Assembly: GCA_028710685.1 (NCBI GenBank)
Contig: JAQTTQ010000007.1
Location: forward strand, 1 to 42,071
Direction: 5' to 3'
Length of the DNA stretch: 42,071 bases
Origin: Candidatus Omnitrophota bacterium
GTDB lineage: Bacteria; Omnitrophota; Gorgyraeia; Gygaellales; Profunditerraquicolaceae
How positions within the stretch are numbered: the stretch's first letter is position 1; every line of letters starts with the position of its first letter. Shown piece by piece: positions 13,529 to 40,569 of the stretch. The translations under genes were made by a program, and so were the position numbers. The notes beneath the pieces are model-generated. The model was not told where the DNA came from, ran no database searches, and worked only from the letters and a program-made list of their open reading frames with translations.

Positions 13529-13533
13529 ATTAA

Positions 13534-15039
13534 TTATTGAGAACGAAGCTGTTCTTTATCAACCTTACCAGTGCGGTTTTTAGGAAGTACGGCTTTAAAT
13601 TCAAAATAATGAGGGATCTTGAAATGGGCAAGGTGTTTCCTTAGAAAATAACGCAGGTCTTCCTCAGAGACGGACTTTCCCTCTTTCACAACTACGAAGG
13701 CCTTGGGCACTTCGCCTCTTAATTTATCCTTAACCCCCACTACCGCTGCCTCCGATACAGACTCATTCTTCTGTATCGCCGCCTCGACCTCCGGCTCAAA
13801 AACAATTTCTCCCCCTACCTTAATCATCTCTTTCTTCCTGCCAACAATATAAAGATACCCCTGCGAATCAAATTTGCCCAAATCACCAGTATGGAACCAT
13901 CCCTGGCGCATACACTCGGAGGTAAGCTCAGCATCCCTATAATATCCGTCGGTAACAACCCATCCCTTAACTACTATTTCCCCTACCTGCCCCGCGCTTA
14001 ACTCCTGGTCGGCATCATCAAAGATTTTTATCTCTATCCACGGCGCAGGCCTGCCTACACTCTCAATCTTATCCGACCCCATAGGCAAGACTGCGGTAGG
14101 CGCGTTAGTCTCGGTCATCCCCCATCCGTTTAAAAGGTGAGCCTTGGGACAAAACTGGTGGAACCTGCGTAATGCATCGGGAGAACTCGAGGCACCGAAT
14201 GTCACAATCCAGCGCAAAGAGGTTAAATCAAATGTCTCAAACTCCTTTAGTTGCAATAAGGCATAGTACATGGAAGGAACTATCCAGAAAAAGTTGACCT
14301 TGTATTTAGCAATATTCTTTAAGAATTCAAGAGGTATAAAACGCTCCATTAAAACAAGCTTCAAGGAAAAACATATTGTATTTTGGATATAAATAAGCCC
14401 TCCCAGGTGAGAGAAAGGCAAGGCGCAAAGCGCGGTATCTTTATGGCTTAAATCTGAATTTACGAAAAACTCCATGGATTTAGGAGGGGCTAAAAGCTGG
14501 CTGTAACTTATCAATACCCCTTTGGGCTTTCCGGTCGTACCCGAGGTATAAAAAATTATCGCGTAATCTTTTTCCTGAGTATCAACATTAACGGCTACAT
14601 CGCTGCCTTTATCCAAACAATCGTTAAAGAATAAATAATCCTCCTGTCTATCTTGGCAAGTTATTACCGTCTTTAAGAAAGGAACCCTTGCCTTAAGCGC
14701 GGTTAAATCCAGCGTAGCCTTAGGCTTTATTATCAAAACCCTGGATTCAGAATGCATAAGGCATGAAGAGAGCTCCTCTGAGGTAAGCATAAAATCCAAA
14801 GGCACAGCTATTGCGCCTAGCGCCCATATTGCCAGGTAACTATAAATATACTCCGGCCAGTTAGGAAGGTACAAGGCTACCCTATCCCCCTTCTCTACCC
14901 CTATCTTCTTAAGGCTGTTTGCCAGCGTAAGGTATCTCTCCTGCAATTTCTTTAAAGTTATTTCTTCATCCCTGAAAATAACCGCAACCTTATCCGGATT
15001 AATATTTGCCTGATCCCTTAAAATATCCAGTATCTTCAT
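13534..15039 (-). CDS. AMP-dependent acyl-CoA synthetase/ligase (ANL superfamily)
   Basis: IIFYTSGTTGKPKGVLISYSQL; GWFHTGDLGKFDSQGYLYIVGRKKEMIKVGGE; NRTGKVDK. Confidence 0.93.
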   Translation of the reverse strand: MKILDILRDQANINPDKVAVIFRDEEITLKKLQERYLTLANSLKKIGVEKGDRVALYLPNWPEYIYSYLAIWALGAIAVPLDFMLTSEELSSCLMHSESRVLIIKPKATLDLTALKARVPFLKTVITCQDRQEDYLFFNDCLDKGSDVAVNVDTQEKDYAIIFYTSGTTGKPKGVLISYSQLLAPPKSMEFFVNSDLSHKDTALCALPFSHLGGLIYIQNTICFSLKLVLMERFIPLEFLKNIAKYKVNFFWIVPSMYYALLQLKEFETFDLTSLRWIVTFGASSSPDALRRFHQFCPKAHLLNGWGMTETNAPTAVLPMGSDKIESVGRPAPWIEIKIFDDADQELSAGQVGEIVVKGWVVTDGYYRDAELTSECMRQGWFHTGDLGKFDSQGYLYIVGRKKEMIKVGGEIVFEPEVEAAIQKNESVSEAAVVGVKDKLRGEVPKAFVVVKEGKSVSEEDLRYFLRKHLAHFKIPHYFEFKAVLPKNRTGKVDKEQLRSQ

Positions 15040-18376: not shown

Positions 18377-19861
18377 TTAAAAACCGTACCAATAGTTAAC
18401 TAGGGGCTTACCCTCATTTGAATGATCAATTATTATATTCTTAAGCCGGGTATATTCTAAAAGGCCATCCCGGCCAAGTTCCTTGCCAAAACCGCTCTGC
18501 TTGAACCCACCGTAAGGAAGCTGGTCATAAAACATGCCGTAGGTATTTATCCATATTGTCCCGGCATTAATCTTTTTAGCCACTTCTTCAGCAAGCCCTA
18601 GATCTTTACTCCAGATACAAGCCGCCAGGCCAAAATCGGAAGAATTAGCCAACTCCACTGCTTCCTTTGAATCAGAAAAACTTCCAACTATAGCTACCGG
18701 CCCAAAAACCTCTTCTTTAAATATATGCATATGCGGTTTGACATTGCCGATAACCGTAGGCTCAAAAAAATACCCGTTTTTAAGCTCCGCATCCTGAGGA
18801 ATCTTTCCGCCACACAAAATTCTTGCCCCCTCTGTCTTAGCCTTCTCCAGGTAGGCAATAATTTTCTTGCGCTGGCTATCGGTAACTAAAGGGCCCATTT
18901 GGGTCTCATGGTTATCCGATAAACCTAATTTTATAGCCTTAGCCTTGCTTACAAAACTAGCCACAAATTGGTCATAGATCTTTTCCTGGACAAGGATGCG
19001 CGACATAGCTGTACACATCTGTCCTTGATTTAAGAAAACCGAACAAAGAGAACTGTTTACCGCCGTTTCGATATCAACATCCGCAAAAACCAAGCTTGCA
19101 GATTTGCCTCCCAACTCCAAAAGAAGCTTCTTAACGCTTGAAGATGTATACCTGAGGATTTCTTTGCCCACTTCCAGGCTGCCGGTAAAAGAAACCATGT
19201 CTATTCTCTTATCGCAGCAAAGTATCTGCCCAGACTTTGCCCCGCTTGCATTGATAATATTCACCACCCCAGGAGGCATTCCTGCCTCATGAATAATCTT
19301 GCCCAATTCAAAGGCAGTAAGCGGGGTTATACTGGAAGGCTTTAATATTACGGTATTGCCCGCTGCAAGGGCAGAAGCCAGCTTCCATGAAGCAATTAAA
19401 AGCGGGTAATTCCACGGGATAATTAAAGATACTACCCCTACGGGCTCACGCAACAAAACTGCCCCTGCCTCTTGCGCAGGAGCTAAAGTTTCATTAATAA
19501 GATAATTCTCAAGATTATTAGCAGCATGCTCAAAAGTTTTAGCAGCAGAAGGCACATCCATAAAGGTTGTCTCTTTTATAGGCTTACCCGTGCTCTCTGT
19601 TTCAATCCTTGCCAGCTCTTCTGCCTTATTAAGGATACCCTCAGCGATCCTAAGAATAACAGCCTTACGCTCCTTGAGAGAAAAACCCCTCCAGGCTCCT
19701 TTATCAAAAGCCTTCCGGGCACTCTCAACAGCCAGGTCAATTTCTTTTTCTGAAGCCAGGAAAACTTGGGCAATAACCTTGCCGGTAGAAGGATTGAGGA
19801 CATTCTGCCTCTCCCTAGTCTCAACAAACTCTCCGTTTATATATAAAGGGGCACAATTCAT
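18377..19861 (-). CDS. NAD(P)-dependent aldehyde dehydrogenase
   Basis: PWNYPLLIASWKLASALAAGNTVILKPS, LELGGKSASLVFADVD, FLNQGQMCTAMSRILV (catalytic Cys). Confidence 0.95.
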   Translation of the reverse strand: MNCAPLYINGEFVETRERQNVLNPSTGKVIAQVFLASEKEIDLAVESARKAFDKGAWRGFSLKERKAVILRIAEGILNKAEELARIETESTGKPIKETTFMDVPSAAKTFEHAANNLENYLINETLAPAQEAGAVLLREPVGVVSLIIPWNYPLLIASWKLASALAAGNTVILKPSSITPLTAFELGKIIHEAGMPPGVVNIINASGAKSGQILCCDKRIDMVSFTGSLEVGKEILRYTSSSVKKLLLELGGKSASLVFADVDIETAVNSSLCSVFLNQGQMCTAMSRILVQEKIYDQFVASFVSKAKAIKLGLSDNHETQMGPLVTDSQRKKIIAYLEKAKTEGARILCGGKIPQDAELKNGYFFEPTVIGNVKPHMHIFKEEVFGPVAIVGSFSDSKEAVELANSSDFGLAACIWSKDLGLAEEVAKKINAGTIWINTYGMFYDQLPYGGFKQSGFGKELGRDGLLEYTRLKNIIIDHSNEGKPLVNYWYGF

Positions 19862-20859
19862 CGTATTTTAACTTCCTTAAATAAAGCAAAAAGCCTGGTA
19901 AAGGGCACATACCATTTTGAGAGTTGTCCTAACTGGCCGGATAATTTCATCCTTCCCTGGGTTACGGCAACAAAAGAATCTAATTTTCCTAAAAATACCT
20001 GTTCCCAAACTTCCCGGGGCGCGGAAATGACAAACGGGGCGTCTGCATCCAGGTCAAGCCTCACAATTTTTCCTTTTTCAAAGTTAAATTTATAAACCTT
20101 ATCCGAACCATCAAGCTTGATAGCCAGCTTGACGGTAAGATTCAGTTCTTCGCCTTTTCTGGCAATCAGCTCATCCTTATTAACCAAATCAACTATTGCC
20201 TGTATATGTTCCCTTGAAAACATAGGCAGGCTTAAATTTAGCGATAAATCTGATTTTAAGGCCTTATCCAAATCATCCAGGATATCGCTTTTGAAAATCC
20301 TTGCTATAGCCGTAGTGCGCACTGCCTCCTCTAAGGCCTCAATCAGGCTCATGGCATCGCAAAATTTATCTGCCAAGGCTACAGCCCCGTGGTTTTTTAA
20401 TACCACGAGGTTATTTGTTTTAAGCGCGGCAATAACCGGCTGGGGGCTTACCACTGTCGGGGTATCCTGCTCAATCACAGGAATCGTACCTAAATAAAAC
20501 TTTGTCTCAAAGGTCAGTGCCTTGAGGTCGGAGGTTACTGCAAAATAACCGTTAGTTAAGGGGGGATGGGCATGTATTACTACATTCGCTTTAAAGTTTT
20601 TATAAACTAAAGAGTGCAGCGGTAATTCTGAGCTTGGCTTAATGGAGGAATATACCTTTCCGGTATTTAAATTTACCCTCACGATATCCTTATGCCTTAG
20701 CTCCCCCAAAGAAGTGCCGGTTGCGGTAATAAGTATATTTTCATCATCCAGGCGGGCACTAATATTCCCGGATTTAGCTACCGCCAGCCGAGCCTGATAA
20801 AGCCGGCTGCCTACCCTTATAATCTCTTTTCTTAACTTAAGTTCTTTTCCAAAATTCAT
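19858..20859 (-). CDS. Class II (AraD/FucA/MtnB-like) aldolase with C-terminal SCP2-like domain
   Basis: SGNISARL, IKPSSELPLH, VVIHAHPPLTNGYF and LKNHGAVAL aldolase metal and catalytic motifs; residues ~217-333 show SCP2-like KVYKFNFEKGKIV...APFVISAPREVWEQVFLGKLDSFVAVTQGRMKLSGQLGQL. Confidence 0.85.
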   Translation of the reverse strand: MNFGKELKLRKEIIRVGSRLYQARLAVAKSGNISARLDDENILITATGTSLGELRHKDIVRVNLNTGKVYSSIKPSSELPLHSLVYKNFKANVVIHAHPPLTNGYFAVTSDLKALTFETKFYLGTIPVIEQDTPTVVSPQPVIAALKTNNLVVLKNHGAVALADKFCDAMSLIEALEEAVRTTAIARIFKSDILDDLDKALKSDLSLNLSLPMFSREHIQAIVDLVNKDELIARKGEELNLTVKLAIKLDGSDKVYKFNFEKGKIVRLDLDADAPFVISAPREVWEQVFLGKLDSFVAVTQGRMKLSGQLGQLSKWYVPFTRLFALFKEVKIR

Positions 20860-21782
20860 CTTTTAATCTCCATACGGATATGCTTAGTTATTAAATTACC
20901 GGGAGTAATATCAAAGGCAGGGTAATATCCTTTAGCCCCTTTCGGAGCCAGCCTTAATCCCCGGTATTCCAGCATCTCCTTATCCGGGCGGATTTCTATC
21001 TTTATCTCCTTACCGCTTTTTTTATCCGAGGGAGGAGGGCATATAACATAAAAGGGGATCTTAAAATACCTAGCCGTAACCGCAATCTGATATGTGCCGA
21101 TCTTATTGGCAATATCTCCGTTTAAAGCCAAATGGTCTGCCCCTACGATTACCTTATTTACTTTTTTAAGCGACATTACCGAAGCCACCATATTATCAGT
21201 AATCAAGGTAACATCAAAACCCGCCCTTTTTAGCTCCCAGGCAGTAAGCCTGGAACCCTGCATATAAGGGCGCGTCTCGGTGGCAAAGAATTTTATGGTT
21301 TTGCGCTGTTTCTTAGCTATAGCTGCGATTAAGGGCATAAGTCCGCTTATGTTACAGTGGGTTAAAACAACATCCCCGTCTTTTAAGAGCCTTGCCGACT
21401 CCTCTGCCTGCGCAAGCCTGCTATATTTTAAACCCTCAAGAAAACCTAATATACATTTTTCTAAAGGCGCTTTGCCATTCGACCAGCTTAATACCATATC
21501 GGTTAAAGACTTAAATGATAATGTCGGGCGGGTCTTGTTAATCTCTGCGGCAACATTTGCCAATTCCTTGCCTCTTCCCTGTTTAAGCAGCTGAAGGAAA
21601 ATATACATCACCAGAAGCACCTGGCCAACCGCACGCGTCTTCATATCCTTAATTGCCTTGCAGGCTTGCCGGTAATGATGCGCCTTTATATAAACGAGCT
21701 CCTGCGGCAGCCTAGTCTCATCGAGTATATAGATAATCTTTCCTTTTAGCTGGATTGGCCAGAATAACGGCGAAAATTTCAT
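20856..21782 (-). CDS. mtnA: S-methyl-5-thioribose-1-phosphate isomerase-like (MtnA) sugar-phosphate isomerase
   Basis: LDETRLPQELVYI, IKDMKTRAVGQ, VLTHCNISGLMP (catalytic Cys), FATETRPYMQGSRLTAWELKRAGFDVTLITDNM, KVIVGADHLALNGDIANKIGTYQIAV (catalytic Asp), NPAFDVTP-like YYPAFDITPGNLIT. Confidence 0.88.
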   Translation of the reverse strand: MKFSPLFWPIQLKGKIIYILDETRLPQELVYIKAHHYRQACKAIKDMKTRAVGQVLLVMYIFLQLLKQGRGKELANVAAEINKTRPTLSFKSLTDMVLSWSNGKAPLEKCILGFLEGLKYSRLAQAEESARLLKDGDVVLTHCNISGLMPLIAAIAKKQRKTIKFFATETRPYMQGSRLTAWELKRAGFDVTLITDNMVASVMSLKKVNKVIVGADHLALNGDIANKIGTYQIAVTARYFKIPFYVICPPPSDKKSGKEIKIEIRPDKEMLEYRGLRLAPKGAKGYYPAFDITPGNLITKHIRMEIKR

Positions 21783-22528
21783 TTCCCCTCTAGTTTTCTT
21801 ACTGTCTCTAAGGCAATCTTTAAAATATTTGCCTCTGCCATATAATACATCGGGTTCATGAAGCCCATCTCTCCCGTAACCACATTATCGCTCACCGCTA
21901 AAATTGAACCGGCTTTAATATTGTAAATCTGGGCGATAGTAAGAAGAGTTGCAGAAACCATATCAACTGCCAAGGCCCCCTCCTTGCGCTTTGCCTCCAC
22001 TATCTCGCGGGTCTCCCGTAAGAGCGCATCTGTGGTCCAGGCCTTGCCGCGATGGATATTAACACCCATTTCCTTTCCTGCTTCATATAAGGTATCGACG
22101 ATCTTTTTATCGGCAACCGTCTTAAAGTCTTTATCAACGTAATAAGGCGTAACCCCATCACCGCGGATAACCTCATCTACTACGAATATATCTCCGACTT
22201 TAATATTTTCATCCAAAGAACCAGCGGTGCCGACTCGGATAATATTTTGAATCTGGGCATTGCACATAACTTCGGTAGTAATGGAGGTATCGGTAGAAAA
22301 CCTTCCTCCGTTAACCGCGGTTATCTTTATCCCTTCAACCGTGCCAGTGTACATAGAATACTCCATAAAGGTAAAGTTCTTCACCGGGTTATCAAATTTC
22401 TTTAATAAAACATCCAGCCTGTCCCTTGGCCCGGGGACGATTGCATACTTGCCTACATCCTGCGGCCTAAGCTGCACCATCTCCGTTAAATCCTTCCCCG
22501 TTAGATGTACCTCCTTTTGCATCTGCAT
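21779..22528 (-). CDS. Nucleoside phosphorylase (Udp/DeoD family)
   Basis: YAIVPGPRDRLDVLL, NIIRVGTAGSLDENIKVGDIFVVDEVIRGDGVTPYY, VDMVSATLLTIAQIYNIKAGSILAVSDN. Confidence 0.9.
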   Translation of the reverse strand: MQMQKEVHLTGKDLTEMVQLRPQDVGKYAIVPGPRDRLDVLLKKFDNPVKNFTFMEYSMYTGTVEGIKITAVNGGRFSTDTSITTEVMCNAQIQNIIRVGTAGSLDENIKVGDIFVVDEVIRGDGVTPYYVDKDFKTVADKKIVDTLYEAGKEMGVNIHRGKAWTTDALLRETREIVEAKRKEGALAVDMVSATLLTIAQIYNIKAGSILAVSDNVVTGEMGFMNPMYYMAEANILKIALETVRKLEGK

Positions 22529-22542
22529 ATTAATTTCTCCTT

Positions 22543-23448
22543 TTAAGATAACAGCCTTGACAAATTAATCCCAAGAATATTCTCCTTATCCTCTTGGGAT
22601 ATCTTCAAATCCCTGATCGCCTGCATACTGACAGCGGGGTCTTTTTTTGCCGGATAATCGCTGCCCCATAAAATATGCCTCGGACCTAATAATTCAAGGG
22701 CTGCGCTAAAATTTGCCTCAGTTTTATCTCCCGAAGTATCCACATAAATATTCTTTAAATAATCCGTAGGGTTTCCTTTTAAATCTTTGACAAATTCTAC
22801 TGAACGCAGCATCTGATATGTTGAATCGAACCTCCCGGTTAAATGAGGCGTTACTCCGCCGAAGTACCCAAAGATGAATTTTACCCCGTAATCACGCAGA
22901 ATATCGGACATCAAAAGTTTGCCGATACAAATGGTGGTATCAAAAATATATTCGATTACCGGGGTCAGAAGAGGATCCTTAACCCGCTCAAAACCAATAG
23001 GGTTTACAATTTGAGAATGCACAAAAACCGGAATGTTTTTATCCTGCGCTATTTTATAAACCTGAAGGAACCTAGCATCATCAAGGTAAATTCCGTTATA
23101 ACTGGTTGCCAGGGATATTGCCTTAAAGCCCAGCTCTTCGGTTGAACGCTTAAGCTCCTTAATCATATCCGGTTCATGGTCAATGGGAAGTATGGCAGCC
23201 CCGATAAATCTGTCAGGGTATTTTCTTATTATCCTGCTTACGTGGTCATTAAATATGCGGACAACTTCGGATATGCTCCCTAATTTTAAGTGGGCATCGG
23301 ATGTGGGATATGATAAAACTGCCTTATTGATACCTGCCCCATCCATAACCCTAAGCTGGGATTCTATCTCTCCCCAGCCTTTATGGTAAAAATGGGCATT
23401 ATTAATAATGCCTTCCGGCAGCCAGTGGCTATGCGCATCAATTACCAT
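22543..23448 (-). CDS. Amidohydrolase-2 (ACMSD/resorcylate-decarboxylase-like) family protein
   Basis: MVIDAHSHWLP (HxH), IPVFVHSQI, KFIFGYFGGVTPHLTGRFD, HILWGSDYP. Confidence 0.82.
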   Translation of the reverse strand: MVIDAHSHWLPEGIINNAHFYHKGWGEIESQLRVMDGAGINKAVLSYPTSDAHLKLGSISEVVRIFNDHVSRIIRKYPDRFIGAAILPIDHEPDMIKELKRSTEELGFKAISLATSYNGIYLDDARFLQVYKIAQDKNIPVFVHSQIVNPIGFERVKDPLLTPVIEYIFDTTICIGKLLMSDILRDYGVKFIFGYFGGVTPHLTGRFDSTYQMLRSVEFVKDLKGNPTDYLKNIYVDTSGDKTEANFSAALELLGPRHILWGSDYPAKKDPAVSMQAIRDLKISQEDKENILGINLSRLLS

Positions 23449-24487: not shown

Positions 24488-25264
24488 CTATTTATCCGGA
24501 TGCTGCTGTTTAAACGGAATAATCGGCGCCACCCAAGGCGTCTGCTGATTAATTACCGATATCTCCAAAGGACAGACATTAGCCGGTACGGTCAATGCAA
24601 ACTTTACGGCATCTTCAATAGCCTTAGTCGACATTAGCCTGGAGGTATCGCTGGTAACATTCTCCAGTTTACCGGTAAGGTCGGTATCCGTTACCCCGGG
24701 GAGAATCGAAGTAACCTTAATCCCGTGGTCGCGTAATTCCCAAAATAACCCCTTGGAGAAAGCGCGTAACCCTACTTTTAAAGAACTATATACTATAAAG
24801 TTTCTTGGCACCGGATCTACAAGCGTAGAGCCGGAAACGATATTAATAATTGCCCCGGACTTCTGCTTGATCATATCATTGATCACCAAACGGATAAGGC
24901 GCACATAGCCTAAATAATTAGTATGCGCAAGTTTCTCTAAATCTTCAATCGGCTGATTCTGGAACGGGTACTGACTGGAGACGCCTGCACAGTTGATCAA
25001 TATATCCACCCGTGAGAATTTTTCTTTTGTCTTATTGGCTAAATTCTCTAAATCTACCAGCTGCGTAACATCGCAAGGCAAAGCAAGAACATCCACCTTA
25101 TGTTTATTGGAAATTTCAGCGGCAGCCTCTTTTAACGGGCCTTCATTACGTGCTGCTATCGTTAAATTGATACCTAAACTGGCAGCGGTTAAGGCTAAAG
25201 ACTTACCTATGCCTCGGCTAGCCCCTGTAACAATAGCAACCTTTCCCTTAAGCCCTTCTCCCAT
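24488..25264 (-). CDS. Short-chain dehydrogenase/reductase
   Basis: KVAIVTGASRGIGKSLAL, DILINCAGVSS, YSSLKVGLRAFSKGL (YxxxK). Start placed at ATG 25264 with a strong GGGGGG-type SD; the ORF track starts at 25333. Confidence 0.92.
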   Translation of the reverse strand: MGEGLKGKVAIVTGASRGIGKSLALTAASLGINLTIAARNEGPLKEAAAEISNKHKVDVLALPCDVTQLVDLENLANKTKEKFSRVDILINCAGVSSQYPFQNQPIEDLEKLAHTNYLGYVRLIRLVINDMIKQKSGAIINIVSGSTLVDPVPRNFIVYSSLKVGLRAFSKGLFWELRDHGIKVTSILPGVTDTDLTGKLENVTSDTSRLMSTKAIEDAVKFALTVPANVCPLEISVINQQTPWVAPIIPFKQQHPDK

Positions 25265-25283
25265 AGCTACTTCCCCCCTATCA

Positions 25284-26402
25284 TTAATTCGCTTTAATTG
25301 ACCTTCCCGAAAATAATAAAAACAATAGCCCAAAACCGAAGATAAGAAATCCTGCGCTAAAGCTGTACGACATAATAAAACCGCCTAAACTCACCCCTAT
25401 GCCTCCGGAGATAAAACGCACTGCGCTGTTTAAACTTGCCGCCTCATTTAAAAATTCTTTAGGCAAGTCCGTAAGCATGGTCGCTAAACCCACATGGTTA
25501 AAGGTCCATCCCAAACCCCAGATTACCATAATCAAAACAAGGGCAAAAAGAGGCAGTTTAAAAATGAGCGCAAAAATACTGAGCACCATAAAGATTATGC
25601 CGATATTAACGATCCTGTTTCTCCCCAGCGAATCCGCAAGCAAGCCTCCCCAGAATTCACCGGCTATGCCGCTTAGGGAGGTTAAGGTTATCAGCATGCT
25701 GATAACGAATTGGGTATACTTTAGCTGAGTAGAAAAATACACTCCCAACCATTGTTGTATAGCATGATAAATAAGGCTGATAAAGAATATGTAGGCCAGT
25801 ATCCTAAGCATCGCCTTATCATTAAACGCCCTTAGGTAATTGAATTTAAAATCGCCCGTATCCTCCTTAAAACTGGGAAGGTAGAAATACATGACTATCC
25901 AGAGAATAAATCCTGATAAGGCCGGTATCAAGAATATCCAGCGCCAGTAAATAACCCCGCTTAGAAACAAACCTAAGAGAGAGGCAATAAAGGTCAGGCC
26001 GAAGAATATCCCGATATATTTACCTCTGTTTTCTTTCGCCTTGTGCTTACCGATTAAGATTAAACCAAGAGGGATGACAGAGGCCCCAAATAGCCCCATA
26101 AGGAACCTTCCCATAAACAGGATATTTATATTCCCTGATAGGCCTACTAAGAGATTGGCAAGGGCAAACAAAAACATGCAGGTTAGCTCTATTTTGCGCG
26201 CATCGAATTTACGCACTAAAGGCCCGTAGATTAAAGCAGCCAAGCCGTAAGTCAGCATATAGATCCATATGACCTTGCCAACTACAAACTGAGAAAGAGC
26301 AAACTCCTTTGCTATCGAAGGAATTAAGGCTGCGGCTGCGGCGACATTAAACGATAAAACCGCGCCTTCTAAACATAATATAAGAAAGGTAATTTTTTTC
26401 AA
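25284..26402 (-). CDS. Major facilitator superfamily transporter
   Basis: 12-TM-like; YGPLVRKFDARKIELTCMFLFALANLLVGLSGNINILFMGRFLMGLFGA and GGLLADSLGRNRI motifs. Confidence 0.9.
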   Translation of the reverse strand: MKKITFLILCLEGAVLSFNVAAAAALIPSIAKEFALSQFVVGKVIWIYMLTYGLAALIYGPLVRKFDARKIELTCMFLFALANLLVGLSGNINILFMGRFLMGLFGASVIPLGLILIGKHKAKENRGKYIGIFFGLTFIASLLGLFLSGVIYWRWIFLIPALSGFILWIVMYFYLPSFKEDTGDFKFNYLRAFNDKAMLRILAYIFFISLIYHAIQQWLGVYFSTQLKYTQFVISMLITLTSLSGIAGEFWGGLLADSLGRNRIVNIGIIFMVLSIFALIFKLPLFALVLIMVIWGLGWTFNHVGLATMLTDLPKEFLNEAASLNSAVRFISGGIGVSLGGFIMSYSFSAGFLIFGFGLLFLLFSGRSIKAN

Positions 26403-26839
26403 AGCTGCGCTTCTTTTTCGATTACCTTTTTAAAAATCAGTAGGTTCTCCTGGGAATGTTTATTAATAAATCCCTCCACCTCTTTATCGGTGAACTTTGC
26501 CTTTTCATCCATCTCAAAATGCTGGATCCAGGTAAGCTCTACCCCTTCAGGCTTCAAGGTGTAAAGCCAGACGATTTTCATATATATAAAGGGAAACTTA
26601 GGTTCAAACCTTTCGGCATAGGCAAAATATTCTTCTTTAAATAAAAGCCTCCAGGAGACCCATGATTTATCCTCATCATCGGTTAAGCGGAAGGTAATCT
26701 TATCCCCTTCCTTACTGATAATTTCAGCTTTCTTGTATTCACTGCCGAATAACTCTATCCAGCGGGGAATATCATTGGATATGTCAAAAACTAAGCCATA
26801 GGGAGCATTAATTATAATTGAATTACAGGTATGTCCCAT
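26399..26839 (-). CDS. SRPBCC polyketide aromatase/cyclase (WhiE ORFVI/TcmN N-domain-like)
   Basis: MGHTCNSIIINAPYGLVFDISNDIPRWIELFGSEYKKAEIISKEGDKITFRLT...MKIVWLYTLKPEGVELTWIQHFEM closely follows the spore-pigment/TcmN cyclase pattern. Confidence 0.88.
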   Translation of the reverse strand: MGHTCNSIIINAPYGLVFDISNDIPRWIELFGSEYKKAEIISKEGDKITFRLTDDEDKSWVSWRLLFKEEYFAYAERFEPKFPFIYMKIVWLYTLKPEGVELTWIQHFEMDEKAKFTDKEVEGFINKHSQENLLIFKKVIEKEAQL

Positions 26840-26876: not shown

Positions 26877-27677
26877 TTACACCAGGGCAACTACCCTTGA
26901 CCAGGCAGCTCCGGTCTGTCGTATCCTTACCGGAAAACATGCAACCTTAAATCCGGCTGCCTGAGGAAGGCTGCTTAAATTACCCAGCCTCTCTATATGG
27001 ATAAATTCTCTTTTCCTGCCGTAAAAATGCGCTGGGTAAAATCTTGCGGGGTCTTTTGAATCAATAAATTCTTTAAGCATAAATTTATAAGGACGGTCTA
27101 TGCCCATAGTATCAACGCCAAAAACCTTAACCCCATGGTCAATAAAAAAATCTATCGCCGTTGTGCCTATCCCGGGATAATCTGTAAAATATCTGGGAGT
27201 CCCGTAAAATTTATCCGCACCCGTCCAGATTAATACGATATCAAGAGGTTTTAAAACATAATCTTCTTTTTTTAGCGCTGTTTCTAAATCTTCAGCGGTT
27301 ATCTCTTCGGCTGCTTTTTTGTGGCGTAAATCCAAGCGCACGGCGTTCTGATAGCAGTATTCAAGAGGTATCTCATCAGCAGTCTTAGATGCCCTCCCCT
27401 CAGATTGAGTCCCATAATGGAAGGAATAATCAAGGTGAGTCCCTACATGCACGGGAGAATGCACTATCTCAAGAGAGAGAAATTCTCCATCCGGAAGGTC
27501 TGCGGGCTTAAGAATTCTTTTCCCCAAAAGGTAATTAATCTTGCCCCTTAAGGTCTTGCCCATAATCACGCGGTTAAATTTCTCAACCCCCGCCTTATGC
27601 GTTATCCGCTCAATATCAACCTTATGGACCTCAAAGCCCTTTTCATCGATCGGCAGGCTCAAATCAATAATCTTCAT
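26877..27677 (-). CDS. Cyclase-family metal-dependent hydrolase (kynurenine formamidase-like fold)
   Basis: HxGTHxDxxxH motif in SPVHVGTHLDYSFHYG; KVFGVDTMGIDRP. Confidence 0.85.
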   Translation of the reverse strand: MKIIDLSLPIDEKGFEVHKVDIERITHKAGVEKFNRVIMGKTLRGKINYLLGKRILKPADLPDGEFLSLEIVHSPVHVGTHLDYSFHYGTQSEGRASKTADEIPLEYCYQNAVRLDLRHKKAAEEITAEDLETALKKEDYVLKPLDIVLIWTGADKFYGTPRYFTDYPGIGTTAIDFFIDHGVKVFGVDTMGIDRPYKFMLKEFIDSKDPARFYPAHFYGRKREFIHIERLGNLSSLPQAAGFKVACFPVRIRQTGAAWSRVVALV

Positions 27678-27710: not shown

Positions 27711-27944
27711 TTATGATGTTTTTGAAAGAATTACCTTCTCGATATCATTGATGTTCGATGATTTTGTAATCTCCTTAGGGCTTAACTTAACCCCGAAAGC
27801 CTTCTCCAGGGCGATAACCGATTCTACCATCTCCGTTGAATCGACCCCAATGCTATCCTGCAAGGATAAATCGTCTTTTAACTCTTCGGGCTTGACCTTT
27901 AACAAATCCACTAAAACTTCCTTGATTTTTAATTTTGTATCCAT
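27711..27944 (-). CDS. Acyl carrier protein
   Basis: 77 aa; LQDSIGVDSTEMVESVIALEKAFGVKL with phosphopantetheine Ser in GVDS; SD AGGAGGG. Confidence 0.93.
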   Translation of the reverse strand: MDTKLKIKEVLVDLLKVKPEELKDDLSLQDSIGVDSTEMVESVIALEKAFGVKLSPKEITKSSNINDIEKVILSKTS

Positions 27945-27981: not shown

Positions 27982-29445
27982 TTATATTTGTACCTCTCCT
28001 TTTGTTGCAGCTGCTTCCCATTTATTGATACCATCCATTACATCCTTAAAACAAAGCTTTGCCAAAGGATCAAAGTCGCTCTCCATAATCCTATTAATAC
28101 GCCCCGGCTTTGAAAAAAATTCTCGCATGCACCAAGAGCCTAACCTGCCCAGGTCTTCCGTAGTAAGGTGATCTGTGGGGATTACCGGATGTAAAAAATC
28201 CCAGGTGCTAAAATCTACCTTCTTGGGATCAACCCAGTTCTTCTTTAAGGCAATCCTCCACATCGGAGAGTTCGGGGCAGGGGTAACATAACCTACCCAC
28301 ATAATATCCGGGTCGACGGCATCAGTAAATTCAAAACGCTGTTTGATGATAGCTTCCGTATCATAGTCAAAACCCATCATTATATCCGCGACAATAGCAA
28401 TATCATTTTTACGCAGAATCTCGATGGTCTTCTTGATTTGATCCAGGGTAATGCCTTTGGCGATCTTCTTTAGCTCCGACTGAGTCGTTACCTCAATGCC
28501 AAAAACGCCCATAAATAAACCATTCTCCTTCATAAGCGGGAGGATAGACTCGCAATTCACCCAATCAATAGCCCTTCCTAGAGATACCCATTTAATCGGA
28601 TTGTTAGATGCCTTTTTAAGTTCACAGAACTTCTGTACCCTTTTAGGGTCGACATTAAAGTTATCATCCTGAATAACCACAACCTTAACCCCGTATTTCT
28701 TATGCAAAAGGTTTAATTCCTCCATTACCCTTTCCGGGGATTTTGCGCGCCATTTTAAAAAGTCAGAAGGAGAGCGTGGGTCAAACTGATCCCACTCATA
28801 GCAAAATGTGCACGCTGAAGGGCAACCGCGGGAAGTAACCATATCAACAAAAGGCTTCCAGTAAGTATGCCCGACATATTTATCCATCGGAAATAAATCA
28901 TAGGCTGGCAAAGGCAGCTTATCCAAATCTTCCATAAGCGGTTTATGCGGCCCCATGACAATTTGCCCGTCAATGCGTGAGGTAACACCGGCTACATCTT
29001 TTAAGGGCTTATTCTTATCAATGGCCTCAACCAGGTCTCCGAAAGATTCCTCTTCGCCCATCACTACAAAATCAACTGCAGGATTTTCTTCTAAAGTAGG
29101 CACAGGCATAGCAGAATACCATAACCCCCCGAAGATTATTTTAGCCTTAGGCAAGGCCTTTTTGATTCCAACAGCTGCATCTTTAAAATGGCGCAATACT
29201 CCGTATCCTCCATAACCATGCAACTGCTCACCCATTACTACGACATCGGGATCTTTTTGCTTTACCTGTTCAATTAATTGATCCATAGAAATCTGGTCAG
29301 CTTTTCCGTCAATAACCGCAACATCGGCGTAACCCCTTGTGTCCCTGACATACGCTGCCCAATGCGCATAAAGCTGGTTTGGAGAACGGTGTATTCCGTG
29401 CGTTGCCCAAGCTCCTACTTTCGGCATAACAAATAATATTTTCAT
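27982..29445 (-). CDS. B12-binding-domain radical SAM enzyme (BchE-like)
   Basis: N-terminal cobalamin-binding-like Rossmann domain (DPDVVVMGEQLHGYGG...AKIIFGGLWYSAMPVPTLEENPAVDFVVMGEEE), then CPSACTFC (CxxxCxxC) and GIEVTTQSELKKIAKGI; strong SD. Confidence 0.9.
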   Translation of the reverse strand: MKILFVMPKVGAWATHGIHRSPNQLYAHWAAYVRDTRGYADVAVIDGKADQISMDQLIEQVKQKDPDVVVMGEQLHGYGGYGVLRHFKDAAVGIKKALPKAKIIFGGLWYSAMPVPTLEENPAVDFVVMGEEESFGDLVEAIDKNKPLKDVAGVTSRIDGQIVMGPHKPLMEDLDKLPLPAYDLFPMDKYVGHTYWKPFVDMVTSRGCPSACTFCYEWDQFDPRSPSDFLKWRAKSPERVMEELNLLHKKYGVKVVVIQDDNFNVDPKRVQKFCELKKASNNPIKWVSLGRAIDWVNCESILPLMKENGLFMGVFGIEVTTQSELKKIAKGITLDQIKKTIEILRKNDIAIVADIMMGFDYDTEAIIKQRFEFTDAVDPDIMWVGYVTPAPNSPMWRIALKKNWVDPKKVDFSTWDFLHPVIPTDHLTTEDLGRLGSWCMREFFSKPGRINRIMESDFDPLAKLCFKDVMDGINKWEAAATKGEVQI

Positions 29446-29499: not shown

Positions 29500-30729
29500 T
29501 TATGCTTTCTCTACAACCAACACGGCATTAATCCCCCCTCTGCCCCGGGAAATTACCAATGCCTTATTGATTTTATGTTCTCTGGCTTCCTTACCTATAT
29601 AATTAAGCCCTTGTTTAGCTGGCACATCTAAATTAATTGTCGGAGGGACTAAATTATTCTCCATAGCTAAAATTGTAGTAACCAAATCTACTGCCCCTGA
29701 AGCCCCCAGGAGGTTACCAAACATTGATTTAGGGCAGCTTGCCGGTATACTTTCAGCATTTTTACCGAATACGTTTCTAATAGCTTCTACTTCGGAATTA
29801 TCCCATAAATCTACTGCCAGGCCGTCCAAGCTTATATAATCTATATCCGAAGGCGAAGCTTTCGCATCTGAAAGCGCCTCTTTTATCGCACGGGAGAGCT
29901 CTAATCCCTTAGAATCACAATTAATCCGGTCAACCCCGTCACAAGTCGTAGCGTAACCGGAGATTAAAGCTAAAATATTTGCCTTCCGCGATTTTGCGCG
30001 CTCAATGCTCTCCATTACCACAACCCCGGAGCCTTCTCCGATAACACAACCGCTTCGGTTTTGATCAAAAGGCCTGTAAGCAGATTTGGGGTCAGAATTA
30101 TTTTTGGATAGCGCCCCATAAGTATTGCAGCATAAAAGCGCATAAGGCGTAACCGGCGCCTCCATGCCTCCGGCTAAAATCATATTCAATTTATTCTTGG
30201 CTAAAACCTTCCGGGCATAACCTAAGGCCATTGAAGAACTGGCGCGGTCAGCAACTACTGTCTTGGAAAAGCCTTTTATGCCGTAATAGATAGAAACCTG
30301 TCCTTGCGGTGCAGCGGGAAACCAGGCTGATGCCATATAAGGAGAAACGCCTTCGCGGCCTTCAATATATAAATCCCGCAACTCTGTTTCAGCATAAAGC
30401 CATCCGCCGATGGCATTCCCTAAGAAAATCCCGACTAAATTCGGGTCTTCATTCTTAATGTCAATCCCGGCATCCTGTAAAGCCAGCTCTGAAGCAATTA
30501 AGGCCATATGCGAAAAAGTATCGATTTTCTTCATAAGCCTCTCTGAAATATGGCTATACTTTTCTAAATCGTCTATTTGTCCGGCGATGCGCGAAGGATA
30601 TTTAGAAGAATCAAAACGGGTTATCTCCTTGACAAAAGACCTTCCGCTTTTGATATTTGCCCAGAATTGGCGTTTGCCTATGCCTGAAGGAGAAACTATC
30701 CCTATACCTGTAACAGCAACCTTATCCAT
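29500..30729 (-). CDS. Type II PKS chain-length factor (KS-beta)
   Basis: Ketosynthase fold; ADRASSS replaces the TACSSS Cys, ISLDGL replaces NAHGT-type His, KSMFGNLLGASG replaces the KSxxGH His. Confidence 0.9.
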   Translation of the reverse strand: MDKVAVTGIGIVSPSGIGKRQFWANIKSGRSFVKEITRFDSSKYPSRIAGQIDDLEKYSHISERLMKKIDTFSHMALIASELALQDAGIDIKNEDPNLVGIFLGNAIGGWLYAETELRDLYIEGREGVSPYMASAWFPAAPQGQVSIYYGIKGFSKTVVADRASSSMALGYARKVLAKNKLNMILAGGMEAPVTPYALLCCNTYGALSKNNSDPKSAYRPFDQNRSGCVIGEGSGVVVMESIERAKSRKANILALISGYATTCDGVDRINCDSKGLELSRAIKEALSDAKASPSDIDYISLDGLAVDLWDNSEVEAIRNVFGKNAESIPASCPKSMFGNLLGASGAVDLVTTILAMENNLVPPTINLDVPAKQGLNYIGKEAREHKINKALVISRGRGGINAVLVVEKA

Positions 30730-31984
30730 TATATCTCCTTAAAACCAATGATGAATGAATCCCCGAAAAACCGCTGCTAGTCTTAAGTATCACGTTAACT
30801 TTCTTCTCTATCGCTTCATTCGGAACGTAATACAAATCACACTGCGGATCCTTCTCTTCCTGATTAATAGTAGGAGGAAGGATGTTTTTCTCAAATATCA
30901 AAGAGGCTACGGTAAGCTCAATGGCGTTAGCCGCTGCCAAAGGATGCCCGATCATGGATTTAAAAGAGCTTATCGGAAGTTTATAGGCATAGTCTCCGAA
31001 GATCTCCTTATAGGCGCTGGTCTCAAATATATCATTCATACGCGTAGATGACCCATGGGCATTAATATAATCTATCTCTTTTGGAGACACCCCGGAATCT
31101 TTTAAGGCTAAGAAAATACAGGTTTCCATCGCCCTTCCGTCAGAAGGAAGGTCAGTCATATGGAAAGCGTTGCAGCTTGTACCAAAACCTAAAACTTCGC
31201 AATAAATCCTGGCATTGCGTTTTAAGGCGTGGTTTAATTCCTCCAAAACTAAGATACCGGCTCCTTCCGATAATACAAACCCGTCGCGTTTATTATCAAA
31301 AGGGCGCGAGGCTTTTTGCGGCTCATCATTATGCGCTGACAAAACATTAACCACATCAAACGCCCCAAAAGTAATAGGCGTTATAGGCGCCTCTGCCGCA
31401 CCGCAAATCATAACATCTTGCTCTCCATCCTGAATTGATTCCAAGCCAAAACCCAAAGAATCTGTTCCGGCAGTACACCCTGTAGAGAGCGTATTACACA
31501 CTCCCTTAAGTTTGTATTTTGATGATAATTCTATCGAAGGGGTATTAAACATAGCCGCGTCATACAAATCCGGGCGGACTAATGAAGGATCAATCGGTTT
31601 TTTACCGTCATCGGTTACAAGCGCAAACTCCTCTTCCATATATTTTGTACCGCAGATAGCATTGGCCAGACAGACGCCGACACGGCGGGAGTCTTCTTTG
31701 CTAAAATCCAAACCACTGTCTTTTATTGCCATATTACCCGCCACTACCCCAAACTGCACATACCTGTCCATGCGCATAACTTCCTGGTGTGTTAATCCTA
31801 ATTTAAAAGGGTCGAAGTCACGTACTTCTGCGGCGATTTTGGTATTAAAAACAGAGATGTCAAAACCATCAACTAATCTCACTCCTGATTTGCCATTGGA
31901 CATACCAGACCAAACTGCTTCTTTCCCTATGCCGTTTGGCGAAATAGTGCCTATCCCGGTTATAACTACTCTACGCTTATCCAT
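30722..31984 (-). CDS. Type II PKS ketosynthase alpha (KS-alpha)
   Basis: STGCTAGTDSLGFG (Cys), INAHGSSTRMND (His), SFKSMIGHPLAAANAIEL (His); overlaps KS-beta start by 8 nt. Confidence 0.95.
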   Translation of the reverse strand: MDKRRVVITGIGTISPNGIGKEAVWSGMSNGKSGVRLVDGFDISVFNTKIAAEVRDFDPFKLGLTHQEVMRMDRYVQFGVVAGNMAIKDSGLDFSKEDSRRVGVCLANAICGTKYMEEEFALVTDDGKKPIDPSLVRPDLYDAAMFNTPSIELSSKYKLKGVCNTLSTGCTAGTDSLGFGLESIQDGEQDVMICGAAEAPITPITFGAFDVVNVLSAHNDEPQKASRPFDNKRDGFVLSEGAGILVLEELNHALKRNARIYCEVLGFGTSCNAFHMTDLPSDGRAMETCIFLALKDSGVSPKEIDYINAHGSSTRMNDIFETSAYKEIFGDYAYKLPISSFKSMIGHPLAAANAIELTVASLIFEKNILPPTINQEEKDPQCDLYYVPNEAIEKKVNVILKTSSGFSGIHSSLVLRRYNG

Positions 31985-31988
31985 AAAA

Positions 31989-32588
31989 TTATTTCTTCTC
32001 CTCTTCTACTCTGGTAATTTTAAATACGATATTACCGCCGTCAGGGCAGGTGACCGTATCGATAGAATTTTGGTCTTGCATAAAGAAAAACCGGGCTCCA
32101 AAATTTAAAGCAAAAAGCGCAGGGAAGGCGCAATGAAATGCCGCACCGCAAAATCCGGGGATGCATTTTAGCCCTTGCGTCTGCCACTTATCTCCCTTTT
32201 TATATCCGAATGAACATTTCCCTTGAGCTTTAACTACTTCTATAATCATCTTCTTAGGATTGGGGCCTTTATGGTTAGGGTCTTTAGGGATAACTTCGAC
32301 TTTTCCTTCTTTATCAAATATCTCTGCCTGAAACTCTAGTTTCCCCCCGTCGGGACAGGTGACTAAAAGCGAACGCTGATTATCGCGAAACCCAAACTTC
32401 GCCCCGAAGCTTAAGGCGTATATAACCGGGAATAATGCGTGGGCAAGCCCCAGGCAAAAATGTTTGGGAGGATGAGTAAAATCTTCCAGAATTATCTCAT
32501 CCCCTTTTTTGTAACCATGGTAGCATTCACCGAATACTTTAGTTACGGTAAGCTTTAATTTTGGAAAAGGGGTATTAACCTCATTCAT
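31989..32588 (-). CDS. Protein with two tandem TIGR04076-like repeats
   Basis: Residues ~11-90 and ~112-197 align: GECYHGYKKGD...HFCLGLAHALFPVIYALSFGAKF...VTCPDGGKLEF and GKCSFGYKKGD...GFCGAAFHCAFPALFALNFGARF...VTCPDGGNIVF. Confidence 0.75.
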   Translation of the reverse strand: MNEVNTPFPKLKLTVTKVFGECYHGYKKGDEIILEDFTHPPKHFCLGLAHALFPVIYALSFGAKFGFRDNQRSLLVTCPDGGKLEFQAEIFDKEGKVEVIPKDPNHKGPNPKKMIIEVVKAQGKCSFGYKKGDKWQTQGLKCIPGFCGAAFHCAFPALFALNFGARFFFMQDQNSIDTVTCPDGGNIVFKITRVEEEKK

Positions 32589-32589
32589 C

Positions 32590-33597
32590 TTAGTTTAAAA
32601 ATATCTTTACGTTGTTCAAAAGCTCCGCCTTGCTGAAGAATTTTTTTGTCTCTTCAACTTCATGCACCATGCCGACTAATTTGCTATTAAGCGCGGAAGA
32701 TAAACCATGATCCTTGGCTATACTGACAAACTCTCCGTTAATATAATCTATCTCCGAAGGCCGGTTGCGTTTAATACTCTGCAAAATTGACCCGAATAAA
32801 GGGTCACGGCTTAATCGTGTCATTATCCCTGAAAACACCTTTGCCGCTTCTTGTGAAGGCATAAAGATAAGCTTAGTTAAGTTTTCCAATGGGAAACCCG
32901 GCAAAGAAGATAATTTTATCCCGGCCTTAGAGATTATATCAAAACCCTCTTTCCAGATACTGATGCTTATGCGGCTGATTTCAGGGTCCAAAAAAGCCTC
33001 CTGCATGCTTACGCCCATTATCGCGGGGATACAATTATTGGCATTAACAAATATCTTTAAATACTTCATCCCTAATATATCCTCGCTTAACACCGTTGGG
33101 AAAGCCTTATCCAAGAGCGCACTCACTGAAAGCATCTTGGAATCCTGCCTTACACCGAATGGGTTGCCTAAAATCCAACTTCCTTCAAAATTATGCACAA
33201 CCTCTCCCGCATTAAGATAAGTTGAACCGAACATAACAATACTAGAAATAATATTTTCTCTTGGCAGATACCTTGAAACAATATTATCCGCACTGACTCC
33301 GTTTTGCGTAGTTACAATTACAGAACCTTGAAGTAACGGAAGGTTACTATTTAAAGCAGCGACGATATCCTGGGTCTTAGTCGCTAAAATAAGGATATCA
33401 GGGCTACAATCCAGTATTTCAGCGGCGGTTATATTGACCTTAAAAGAACCTCTTACCCCTGATATCTTAAGGCCTTTTTTATTAATAGCATAAGTTGCAT
33501 CAGGACGGCCGACCAACAAGACATCTTCACCTTTAAGCTTAAGATAACCAGCTACTAAAGAGCCTATAGCACCTGCTCCGATAACCGCTATTTTCAT
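32590..33597 (-). CDS. Ketopantoate reductase (ApbA/PanE) family protein
   Basis: MKIAVIGAGAIGSLVAGYLKLKGEDVLLVGR, LATKTQDIVAAL, TTQNGVSAD, SSIVMFGSTYLNAGEVVHN. Confidence 0.9.
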   Translation of the reverse strand: MKIAVIGAGAIGSLVAGYLKLKGEDVLLVGRPDATYAINKKGLKISGVRGSFKVNITAAEILDCSPDILILATKTQDIVAALNSNLPLLQGSVIVTTQNGVSADNIVSRYLPRENIISSIVMFGSTYLNAGEVVHNFEGSWILGNPFGVRQDSKMLSVSALLDKAFPTVLSEDILGMKYLKIFVNANNCIPAIMGVSMQEAFLDPEISRISISIWKEGFDIISKAGIKLSSLPGFPLENLTKLIFMPSQEAAKVFSGIMTRLSRDPLFGSILQSIKRNRPSEIDYINGEFVSIAKDHGLSSALNSKLVGMVHEVEETKKFFSKAELLNNVKIFLN

Positions 33598-33600
33598 ACT

Positions 33601-33861
33601 TTAAGATTTGGGGAAACCGTATTTTTTGTAATCAAACCCGGTTTGTTCTAATAATCTTACCATCATACTATAAAATGGGGAGGGGACACCGGAGAAAAAA
33701 GCGGCCAGAACATCCTGCTCCTCTACTTTCGCACAATTTCTTTTACCGGCATTTTCCTCAGCCATTTTTGTCACCGCTTCTTCAGTAATATGCCGGTGGA
33801 AAACTGGTATTTTGGATGTAAACAGCTTAAACTTCTCTTTCGTATTAATATCCCATTCCAT
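33601..33861 (-). CDS. Small PCP_red-like protein (protochlorophyllide-reductase C-terminal-like domain)
   Basis: 86 aa with WDINTKEKFKLFTSKIPVFHRHITEEAVTKMAEENAGKRNCAKVEEQDVLAAF resembling the PF08369 'W...A.E.L.kvP.fvR...r..vE..A...g...It.e.v..A' pattern. Confidence 0.6.
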   Translation of the reverse strand: MEWDINTKEKFKLFTSKIPVFHRHITEEAVTKMAEENAGKRNCAKVEEQDVLAAFFSGVPSPFYSMMVRLLEQTGFDYKKYGFPKS

Positions 33862-34001: not shown

Positions 34002-34502
34002 CTATGTCTTATGGGAAGATACCTTAATTATTGCCTCAGATATAGACTGATTTAAGGAAGCTTCATTGCCTACATCATCCCAGTGGATAAAGATATTTTC
34101 TATGGAAGAAAATCCTTTTTTCTTAAGGAAAGATTTAACATACTTTGAGCACCTTTTAGCGCTTTCCTTAAAGCCATAAACATAAAAACATATCGCTTTT
34201 TTACCTATGGTATTCTTGGTAAGGAGTAGATATTTAGTAACCGGGGCTGAAGGCCTCCCTCCCCATACCGGTATCCCTATGCAAAGCAGGTCATAATCGG
34301 TCAGGTCTGTTTTTACCGGGGCAAGCTTTACAAACATAGGGAACAACCTGTAAAACGTCCGCATAATAATATTCTGCCGGTTATCCATATATTCTATCTG
34401 GGTAATATCGGTTTCGCCCTTTTTGCGTAATGCATCCAGTAATGCATCTGCCAGGCGTGCGGTATTTCCGTAGCGCGAGTAATATACTACCAGGCTTTTC
34501 AT
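34002..34502 (-). CDS. Flavodoxin-like protein
   Basis: MKSLVVYYSRYGNTARLADAL (phosphate loop), YDLLCIGIPVWGGRPSAPV. Confidence 0.88.
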   Translation of the reverse strand: MKSLVVYYSRYGNTARLADALLDALRKKGETDITQIEYMDNRQNIIMRTFYRLFPMFVKLAPVKTDLTDYDLLCIGIPVWGGRPSAPVTKYLLLTKNTIGKKAICFYVYGFKESAKRCSKYVKSFLKKKGFSSIENIFIHWDDVGNEASLNQSISEAIIKVSSHKT

Positions 34503-34519: not shown

Positions 34520-34810
34520 TTAAGTTACTTCTTCTAACGGCAAGACAAACGCCTTTACCCCTTCATGCCCGATACTCTTTCTCAATTCCCTTACCTTCTC
34601 AATCATCACGTTTGCTTGAGCCTCTTTACAAGCAATATAAAGTATATTGTTTAACCCCGGCCAAATATCGGTCCCTAAATGGCTTCCGCTTGATACGCCA
34701 TCTCCAAGTACGCCAGTAATTTTTGTGTAATTTTTTGATGCCCCTTCAGCCAAAATACCCATTACCTCATCGTCCAAAGCCTCATTATATACAACCATTA
34801 CCATTTTCAT
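34520..34810 (-). CDS. PII-like RND-associated protein (PG0541-type)
   Basis: 96 aa MKMVMVVYNEALDDEVMGILAEGASKNYTKITGVLGDGVSSGSHLGTDIWPGLNN; overlaps the RND pump stop. Confidence 0.7.
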   Translation of the reverse strand: MKMVMVVYNEALDDEVMGILAEGASKNYTKITGVLGDGVSSGSHLGTDIWPGLNNILYIACKEAQANVMIEKVRELRKSIGHEGVKAFVLPLEEVT

Positions 34811-38855: not shown

Positions 38856-38857
38856 AA

Positions 38858-40123: not shown

Positions 40124-40569
40124 ATTACCCCTTTCTTAATATGCTTTTCTATGCGCATAAGTACGCGCAGGTAATCCTGGCGGTCTTTTTCGGTAACTTT
40201 GCCAAAAATCCTCATTACCATCCTGCGCCTTTCATGAGCGACTTTTTTCATTAAAGCCTGCCCTTTTAAATTAATCTCTATCTTAATAATACGGCGGTCA
40301 TTTTGATCAAAAATCCTATTTACATAACCAGCTTTAACTAATCTATCCACAATCCCGGTTACAGCAGCTGTAGTTACTTTCATGAAATTAGCTATATCGG
40401 TCATCTTAACTGAATCCTGGGTACTTAAATATTGCAAAACCAGAATCTGGGGCAAAGTCACCTTCCCCTTGTAAATTTCCTGCGGCTGCATATGGGCAAA
40501 CTCTTTCATAAGTATAGGCATAATCTCATTCATCTTATCGGCAAAATCAGACAATGTTAGCATTGGCAT
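40120..40569 (-). CDS. MarR-family transcriptional regulator
   Basis: TLPQILVLQYLSTQDSVKMTDIANFMKVTTAAVTGIVDRLVKAGYVNRIFDQNDRRIIKIEI winged helix. Confidence 0.93.
   Translation of the reverse strand: MPMLTLSDFADKMNEIMPILMKEFAHMQPQEIYKGKVTLPQILVLQYLSTQDSVKMTDIANFMKVTTAAVTGIVDRLVKAGYVNRIFDQNDRRIIKIEINLKGQALMKKVAHERRRMVMRIFGKVTEKDRQDYLRVLMRIEKHIKKGVI

Follow-up and report, generated by a model that had tools for sequence, protein, structure and literature searches.

B12 radical S-adenosylmethionine (SAM) enzymes that are not methylases are few in number, and it is unclear what their cobalamin does (PMC13142503). Two members of the wider group, the anaerobic Mg-protoporphyrin IX monomethyl ester cyclase BchE (TIGR02026) and the hopanoid cyclitol-ether radical SAM enzyme HpnJ (TIGR03471), are the two best curated matches of the protein encoded by a gene, here called rSAM, on contig JAQTTQ010000007.1 (assembly GCA_028710685.1) of a Candidatus Omnitrophota bacterium, of which positions 1 to 42,071 were analysed (the window). 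The rSAM gene is real and conserved, lies outside every curated family tested and encodes a class-1 cobalamin radical SAM enzyme of a clade that is new and, among the sequences in our tree, specific to Omnitrophota. It is found in one cluster with an aromatic type II polyketide synthase (PKS) and with re-tooled nucleoside enzymes, a combination that points to an undescribed pathway. The presence of the chain length factor (CLF) in Ca. Omnitrophica is already catalogued (PMC10132072), and no description of the cluster or of its radical SAM gene was found in the literature searched.

The rSAM protein matches the Pfam domains B12-binding (6.1e-10) and Radical_SAM (2.2e-20) over their cut-offs, and this N-terminal B12-binding Rossmann domain followed by a radical SAM barrel is the layout by which class-1 cobalamin radical SAM enzymes are recognised; cobalamin binding is predicted from the first of the two matches. 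The open reading frame (ORF) is no chance feature, because orthologues with 67-96% identity occur in many Omnitrophota genomes. A first-pass annotation of the window had reported this ORF, its CPSACTFC cluster motif and the neighbouring acyl carrier protein (ACP) gene, all of which are confirmed, the motif being a proper CxxxCxxC at residues 208-215. It had also noted a missing DxHxxG, and a motif check of the rSAM sequence found none; the absence is general among class-1 enzymes (PMC13331322) and is therefore not a mark of the BchE type, as had been proposed. Likewise, the N-terminal segment likened to the BchE start turns out not to be BchE-specific, with 8 identities in 31 residues aligned to Thiodictyon BchE and 9 in 26 to HpnJ.

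A closer comparison with curated families shows how distant the BchE relationship is. The BchE model tops the 18 NCBIfam matches of rSAM (205.8 bits, E 1e-60) at a cut-off of 481 bits, followed by HpnJ with 158 bits at a cut-off of 578, so that the window member is below both. Both models are matched by all 14 Omnitrophota members scanned, the scores quoted being those of the window member. Identity is 23% to the BchE proteins of plasmid photosynthesis clusters that served as references (L066 and L067, beside bchL/M/J and bchB/N), and 28% to HpnJ. In the tree, the 58 Omnitrophota sequences are monophyletic (100/97) and the two reference BchE proteins fall in a separate clade, while long branches among the references leave their order relative to each other unsure. 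BchE and rSAM have in common the B12-binding Rossmann and radical SAM layout and a Trp after the CxxxCxxC cysteines, but rSAM has an additional loop after strand 3 and an additional segment after the cysteine motif, is without the longer C-terminal part of BchE, and has no tetrapyrrole genes in its operon; unlike HpnJ, it has no hpnI/hpnK neighbours. No bacteriochlorophyll genes were seen within the window, and the best BchE match of the window's genome is rSAM itself, under the cut-off. Membership of rSAM in BchE is thus ruled out by score, tree and genomic context, and of the earlier BchE-type identity what stands is the best curated match: "BchE-like" here means nearest named relative only.

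The AlphaFold model, computed from the window rSAM sequence and homologues from named loci, has a predicted local distance difference test score (pLDDT) of 87 and a predicted template modelling score of 0.89. Its top PDB matches in Foldseek include AprD4, MgmA, OxsB, TsrM, TokK and CysS; the solved structures of AprD4, OxsB, TsrM, TokK and CysS are the nearest folds, yet their identity to rSAM is 13-19%. Several of these folds (TokK, TsrM, CysS, MgmA) are methylases, as would suit a B12-dependent C-methylase of the radical type whose substrate is a lipid precursor, the polyketide or the polyketide starter, with S-adenosylhomocysteine and 5'-deoxyadenosine as by-products. We consider this role quite unlikely: the curated B12 radical SAM methyltransferase families (PhpK, KedN5, HpnR, Sden_1168, MgmA) reach at most 104 bits at cut-offs of at least 360, no methylase model comes near the BchE and HpnJ scores, and these two best models are both non-methylases, while the sequence features examined here decide neither way on methyl transfer. 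None of the results assigns rSAM firmly to a methyltransferase subfamily whose substrate is known, the outcome that would have counted against the first-pass interpretation.

The additional loop, G-[DE]-x-[LI]-H-x-x-G-G at residues 72-80, is common to groups A-D of the family (defined below), with His76 present in 55/55 sequences, and is absent from the BchE references, the HpnJ references and group E. In the AlphaFold model it follows Rossmann strand 3 (residues 68-72), with a local pLDDT of ~69, and it is longer in the rSAM clade than in BchE and HpnJ. The same loop elsewhere carries the residue below cobalt, namely Asn186 in OxsB, Arg69 in TsrM and Trp76 in TokK (PMC13331322). If placed as modelled, His76 may give a new axial cobalt environment, which makes it a testable loop residue near the presumed cobalt site.

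To describe the distribution of the family, an even draw of 334 Omnitrophota genomes was surveyed, with family membership set at E ≤ 1e-70, and a member is found in 123 of them; among the 80 matching loci listed in a contig scan, almost all are from Omnitrophota. Groups A-E were set by identity to the window rSAM, tree and context. Group A (67-100% identity) lies inside PKS clusters; group B (57-66%) is mostly alone beside a TetR gene; group C (47-56%) is in PKS clusters, often flanked by an aldehyde dehydrogenase (ALDH) and a DUF2621-like gene; groups D and E (35-46%) are partly in PKS-less clusters. More than one copy is present in some genomes, either B with C or B with C plus a D-like one. 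By eye, the group-B genes at L052, L053, L159, L162, L164, L166, L169 and L176 are apart from the PKS and adjoin a conserved TetR-like regulator; G129, a genome lacking any CLF match, is among those with this arrangement. One PKS cluster, at L139, contains a further B12 radical SAM gene (13125-14573) that is only distantly related (24% identical).

The polyketide genes around rSAM form a type II PKS as judged from sequence, with an adjacent ketosynthase (KS-alpha) carrying the active-site Cys, a Cys-less KS-beta of the CLF kind and a discrete ACP. In alignments of cluster members the Asp-Ser of ACP, the Ala for Cys of KS-beta and the catalytic residues of KS-alpha are kept. The Cys-His-His of KS-alpha, the Cys-less KS-beta, the discrete ACP and the cyclases are shared with the actinobacterial type II PKSs, from which the Omnitrophota cluster differs in that FabF is the best hidden Markov model for both KS proteins and in having a radical SAM tailoring gene and a nucleoside module. 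In the window, rSAM is flanked by ACP 37 bp downstream and KS-beta 54 bp upstream, and the ORFs from the acyl-CoA ligase through the DUF2621-like gene are on a single strand, successive ones either overlapping or lying no more than 54 bp apart. Near the 33 well-flanked group A copies, the amidohydrolase is found 32 times, the SDR reductase 31 times, KS-alpha, KS-beta, ACP, both cyclases and PanE 30 times each, MtnA 28, the SCP2-aldolase 26, the phosphorylase 24 and ALDH 21 times. Most often rSAM is directly flanked by KS-beta and ACP (49 copies), next by SDR with amidohydrolase (22), then by ALDH with the DUF2621-like gene (9) and by acyl-CoA ligase with phosphorylase (4). Over 46 loci rSAM is the most conserved gene, with a mean identity of 89.6% (KS-alpha 83.8, KS-beta 79.0, ACP 76.6).

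Across the survey, CLF is present in 117 genomes and the SCP2-aldolase in 121; 114 of the 123 rSAM-positive genomes also have CLF and 118 also have the SCP2-aldolase (Fisher p < 1e-70 for both pairings, shared ancestry being ignored). Three genomes are CLF-positive and rSAM-negative, two of which are accounted for by contig ends: in G004, of the same genus as the window, contigs break exactly at the expected rSAM site, which makes an assembly gap likely, and G190 has a truncated rSAM at a contig start. Membership of rSAM in the polyketide pathway is strongly supported, because it shares the operon, a conserved neighbourhood and this co-occurrence with CLF. The earlier suggestion that the polyketide itself is the substrate does not share this support: the steadiest partners of rSAM are the phosphorylase, MtnA, aldolase, ALDH and ligase, and four genera are without a type II PKS match. 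The latter comprise six rSAM-positive genomes (G036, G043, G153, G162, G196, G273), which retain rSAM with the phosphorylase, MtnA, SCP2-aldolase and acyl-CoA ligase. The PKS-less rSAM clusters also have an RND exporter of HAE3/MMPL type, and by eye those at L059, L060, L062, L174, L175 and L177 combine the exporter with a conserved secreted protein of ~296 aa resembling lipoprotein-sorting proteins.

The same data bear on whether rSAM and the nucleoside module are clustered by descent or shared regulation only, the module being ordinary salvage. Group B is often alone with TetR, and the group-B copy of G129 persists in a genome that lacks both PKS and SCP2-aldolase, as this would predict; the tight co-occurrence across 334 genomes makes it very unlikely, as does the leftover aldolase match of 9 rSAM-negative genomes, which ends before the SCP2 domain, at its boundary. 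In 5 near rSAM-less relatives examined, the neighbour of the aldolase is rlmN, and neither MtnA nor the phosphorylase adjoins it.

The order of steps in the module recalls the dihydroxyacetone phosphate (DHAP) shunt, in which MtnP or MtnN/MtnK, MtnA and Ald2/DrdA bring about deglycosylation, isomerisation and retro-aldol cleavage to DHAP, and which is a precedent for trimming (PMC10986504). The cluster contains the elements that define the shunt: nucleoside cleavage, an MtnA isomerase and a class II aldolase, the last of FucA/DrdA fold in both systems, with catalytic Cys, Asp, Glu and His residues retained across the set. What sets the module apart from the shunt is that its genes are additional copies, probably specific to the pathway, in which binding motifs are altered and the aldolase is fused to SCP2; the module also co-occurs with rSAM. 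Its enzymes are predicted to be catalytically complete, with altered substrate sites. The phosphorylase has DMV[ST] in place of the EME of uridine/purine phosphorylases (22/22) and keeps the R-[VIL]-G segment, the two being parts of the ribose and phosphate sites, respectively. The cluster MtnA lacks RGAP and a 7-residue loop (25/25, versus 0/6 of housekeeping MtnA) and retains Cys160 and Asp240 (B. subtilis numbering). In the aldolase, Glu78, His96, His98 and His157 are kept in 29/29 or nearly so, and its SCP2 domain matches Pfam just over the cut-off; SCP2 domains bind hydrophobic ligands. The acyl-CoA ligase is nearer to long-chain than to acetate ligases. In groups C, D, E and some of A (L049, L055, L057-L060, L062, L174, L177), but not in the window, the cluster MtnA has a second, truncated MtnA/eIF2B-like gene beside it; the pair suggests a two-subunit isomerase.

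Two observations bear on whether the module takes 5'-deoxyadenosine or methylthioadenosine, the substrates of the shunt: substrate-site motifs differ in all module members examined, and a separate housekeeping MtnA is present. Among 25 genomes tested, all 5 rSAM-positive ones have two MtnA copies (a housekeeping one of ~350 aa or more and the cluster copy) and the phosphorylase, whereas of the 20 rSAM-negative ones, with 14-59 radical SAM domains, 1 has the phosphorylase and all have one or no MtnA, except G313 with two (a cluster fragment). This distribution disfavours general 5'-deoxyadenosine salvage, and we infer with good confidence that the module is pathway-specific. Clearance of inhibitory 5'-deoxyadenosine, with recycling of its carbon, is the task the module would have if rSAM were a BchE-type enzyme carrying out an O2-free hydroxylation, oxidation or ring closure of the polyketide with water. 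An anaerobe needs oxygen-free oxidations, dedicated 5'-deoxyadenosine salvage exists (PMC8102628, PMC10986504), BchE is the top curated match and 49 copies lie between KS-beta and ACP; we nevertheless hold such a role to be unlikely, given a BchE score of 206 bits at a cut-off of 481, an identity of 23%, the persistence of rSAM and module without PKS in four genera, the rSAM-less genomes rich in other radical SAM enzymes but without the module phosphorylase, and the housekeeping MtnA already present in all rSAM-positive genomes tested.

Taken together, the altered substrate sites, the SCP2 domain and the long-chain-type ligase lead us to favour a hydrophobic 5'-substituted nucleoside as the intermediate. 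In the PKS-less clusters rSAM is the only radical SAM gene recognised, and so the obvious candidate for the adenosylation. The precedent is the HpnH/HpnG pair of hopanoid synthesis, in which radical adenosylation to adenosylhopane is followed by adenine removal (PMC12583986). By analogy, rSAM would couple a hydrophobic precursor to the 5'-deoxyadenosyl group, and the phosphorylase would remove adenine from the adduct by phosphorolysis; beyond HpnH/HpnG, the MtnA-type enzyme would then isomerise the ribose-1-phosphate, the SCP2-aldolase would release DHAP by retro-aldol cleavage, and ALDH and ligase would oxidise the aldehyde and activate the acid with CoA, the product R-CH2-CO-CoA priming the KS/CLF/ACP set. 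HpnH, in contrast to rSAM, is not a B12 enzyme. That rSAM makes an adenosylated intermediate, and that trimming by the module turns this into an acyl-CoA starter, is a tentative proposal, to which we give somewhat less than even chances, and its adenosylation step and starter role are speculative.

Several observations weigh against it. We know of no B12 radical SAM enzyme that adenosylates its own substrate. Group-B orthologues usually stand apart with a TetR gene, one of them in a genome, G129, that lacks both CLF and SCP2-aldolase; the rSAM of the window clade is mostly located between KS-beta and ACP, outside the module, and the phosphorylase was seen near no more than 24 of the 33 well-flanked group A copies. 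Nor would the loss of the ribose-binding Glu be expected if the substrate were a plain 5'-substituted adenosine. The pathway probably makes an aromatic, lipid-like polyketide. Doubtful in its entirety is the fuller scheme, in which the B12 enzyme adenosylates a hydrophobic precursor, perhaps with His76 as cobalamin ligand in a new position, and a neofunctionalised DHAP-shunt set leaves two carbons as the R-CH2-CO-CoA starter of an oxygen-free aromatic PKS whose product is a lipid or quinone widespread in Omnitrophota. If true, the adenosylation and trimming mechanism would extend the DHAP shunt from salvage to biosynthesis. The rSAM family offers an entire clade that is better conserved than the PKS genes around it and comes with a defined operon and natural loss controls, and the cluster opens a way to an aromatic, probably lipid-like and so far undescribed product of a major uncultured phylum.

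Table 1. Genes of the rSAM cluster in the window (positions of the 42,071-nucleotide stretch)
Gene product	Position	Strand	Remarks
Acyl-CoA ligase, long-chain type, recurrent in cluster	13534..15039	-	
Aldehyde dehydrogenase (ALDH)	18377..19861	-	profile match
Class II aldolase (FucA/DrdA fold) fused to C-terminal SCP2 domain	19858..20859	-	
Second MtnA-type isomerase	20856..21782	-	catalytic Cys, Asp kept; RGAP and 7-residue loop lost 25/25
Pathway nucleoside phosphorylase	21779..22528	-	ribose-binding Glu to Val in 22/22; VSDN motif in nearly all
Amidohydrolase PF04909 (family includes aromatic-acid decarboxylases)	22543..23448	-	His6, His8, His144, Asp264 invariant
SDR reductase, 3-ketoacyl-ACP reductase-like	24488..25333	-	profile match
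MFS exporter	25284..26402	-	profile match
SRPBCC aromatase/cyclase-like	26399..26839	-	Pfam Polyketide_cyc2 8e-5, below cut-off
Metal-dependent cyclase	26877..27677	-	PF04199, HxGTHxD
Acyl carrier protein (ACP)	27711..27944	-	Ser36 in D-S-T-E
Class-1 B12-binding radical SAM enzyme (rSAM)	27982..29445	-	487 aa, ATG start; Pfam domains, tree, model
KS-beta / chain-length-factor-like (CLF)	29500..30729	-	Ala163 in place of active-site Cys
KS-alpha, active ketosynthase	30722..31984	-	Cys170, His310, Lys342, His347 invariant
Tandem TIGR04076-family protein	31989..32588	-	
PanE/ApbA-type ketopantoate-reductase-like dehydrogenase	32590..33597	-	
Small DUF2621-like protein	33601..33861	-	weak PCP_red similarity

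The last gene of Table 1 was considered as a protochlorophyllide-reductase domain, which would revive a tetrapyrrole reading, and was rejected with a PCP_red E-value of 0.054 (0.0028 for the best family member); DUF2621 fits the family better (12/13, best 1.2e-8), the window member itself being below the DUF2621 and PCP_red cut-offs. The TIGR04076 protein is kept between KS-alpha and PanE in group A and is absent from many group C clusters. Just upstream of the operon, at 34002-34502, there is a flavodoxin gene, a possible rSAM reductant, found near rSAM in only 1/33 group A loci. It is followed at 34520-40569 by an RND efflux operon (AcrB, MFP, TolC, MarR) and a small PII-like protein; the efflux operon is also near the cluster in the relatives L144 and L191, and is found in the rSAM-less genomes at L181 and L182. 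A UbiA gene is present in the window's own genome.
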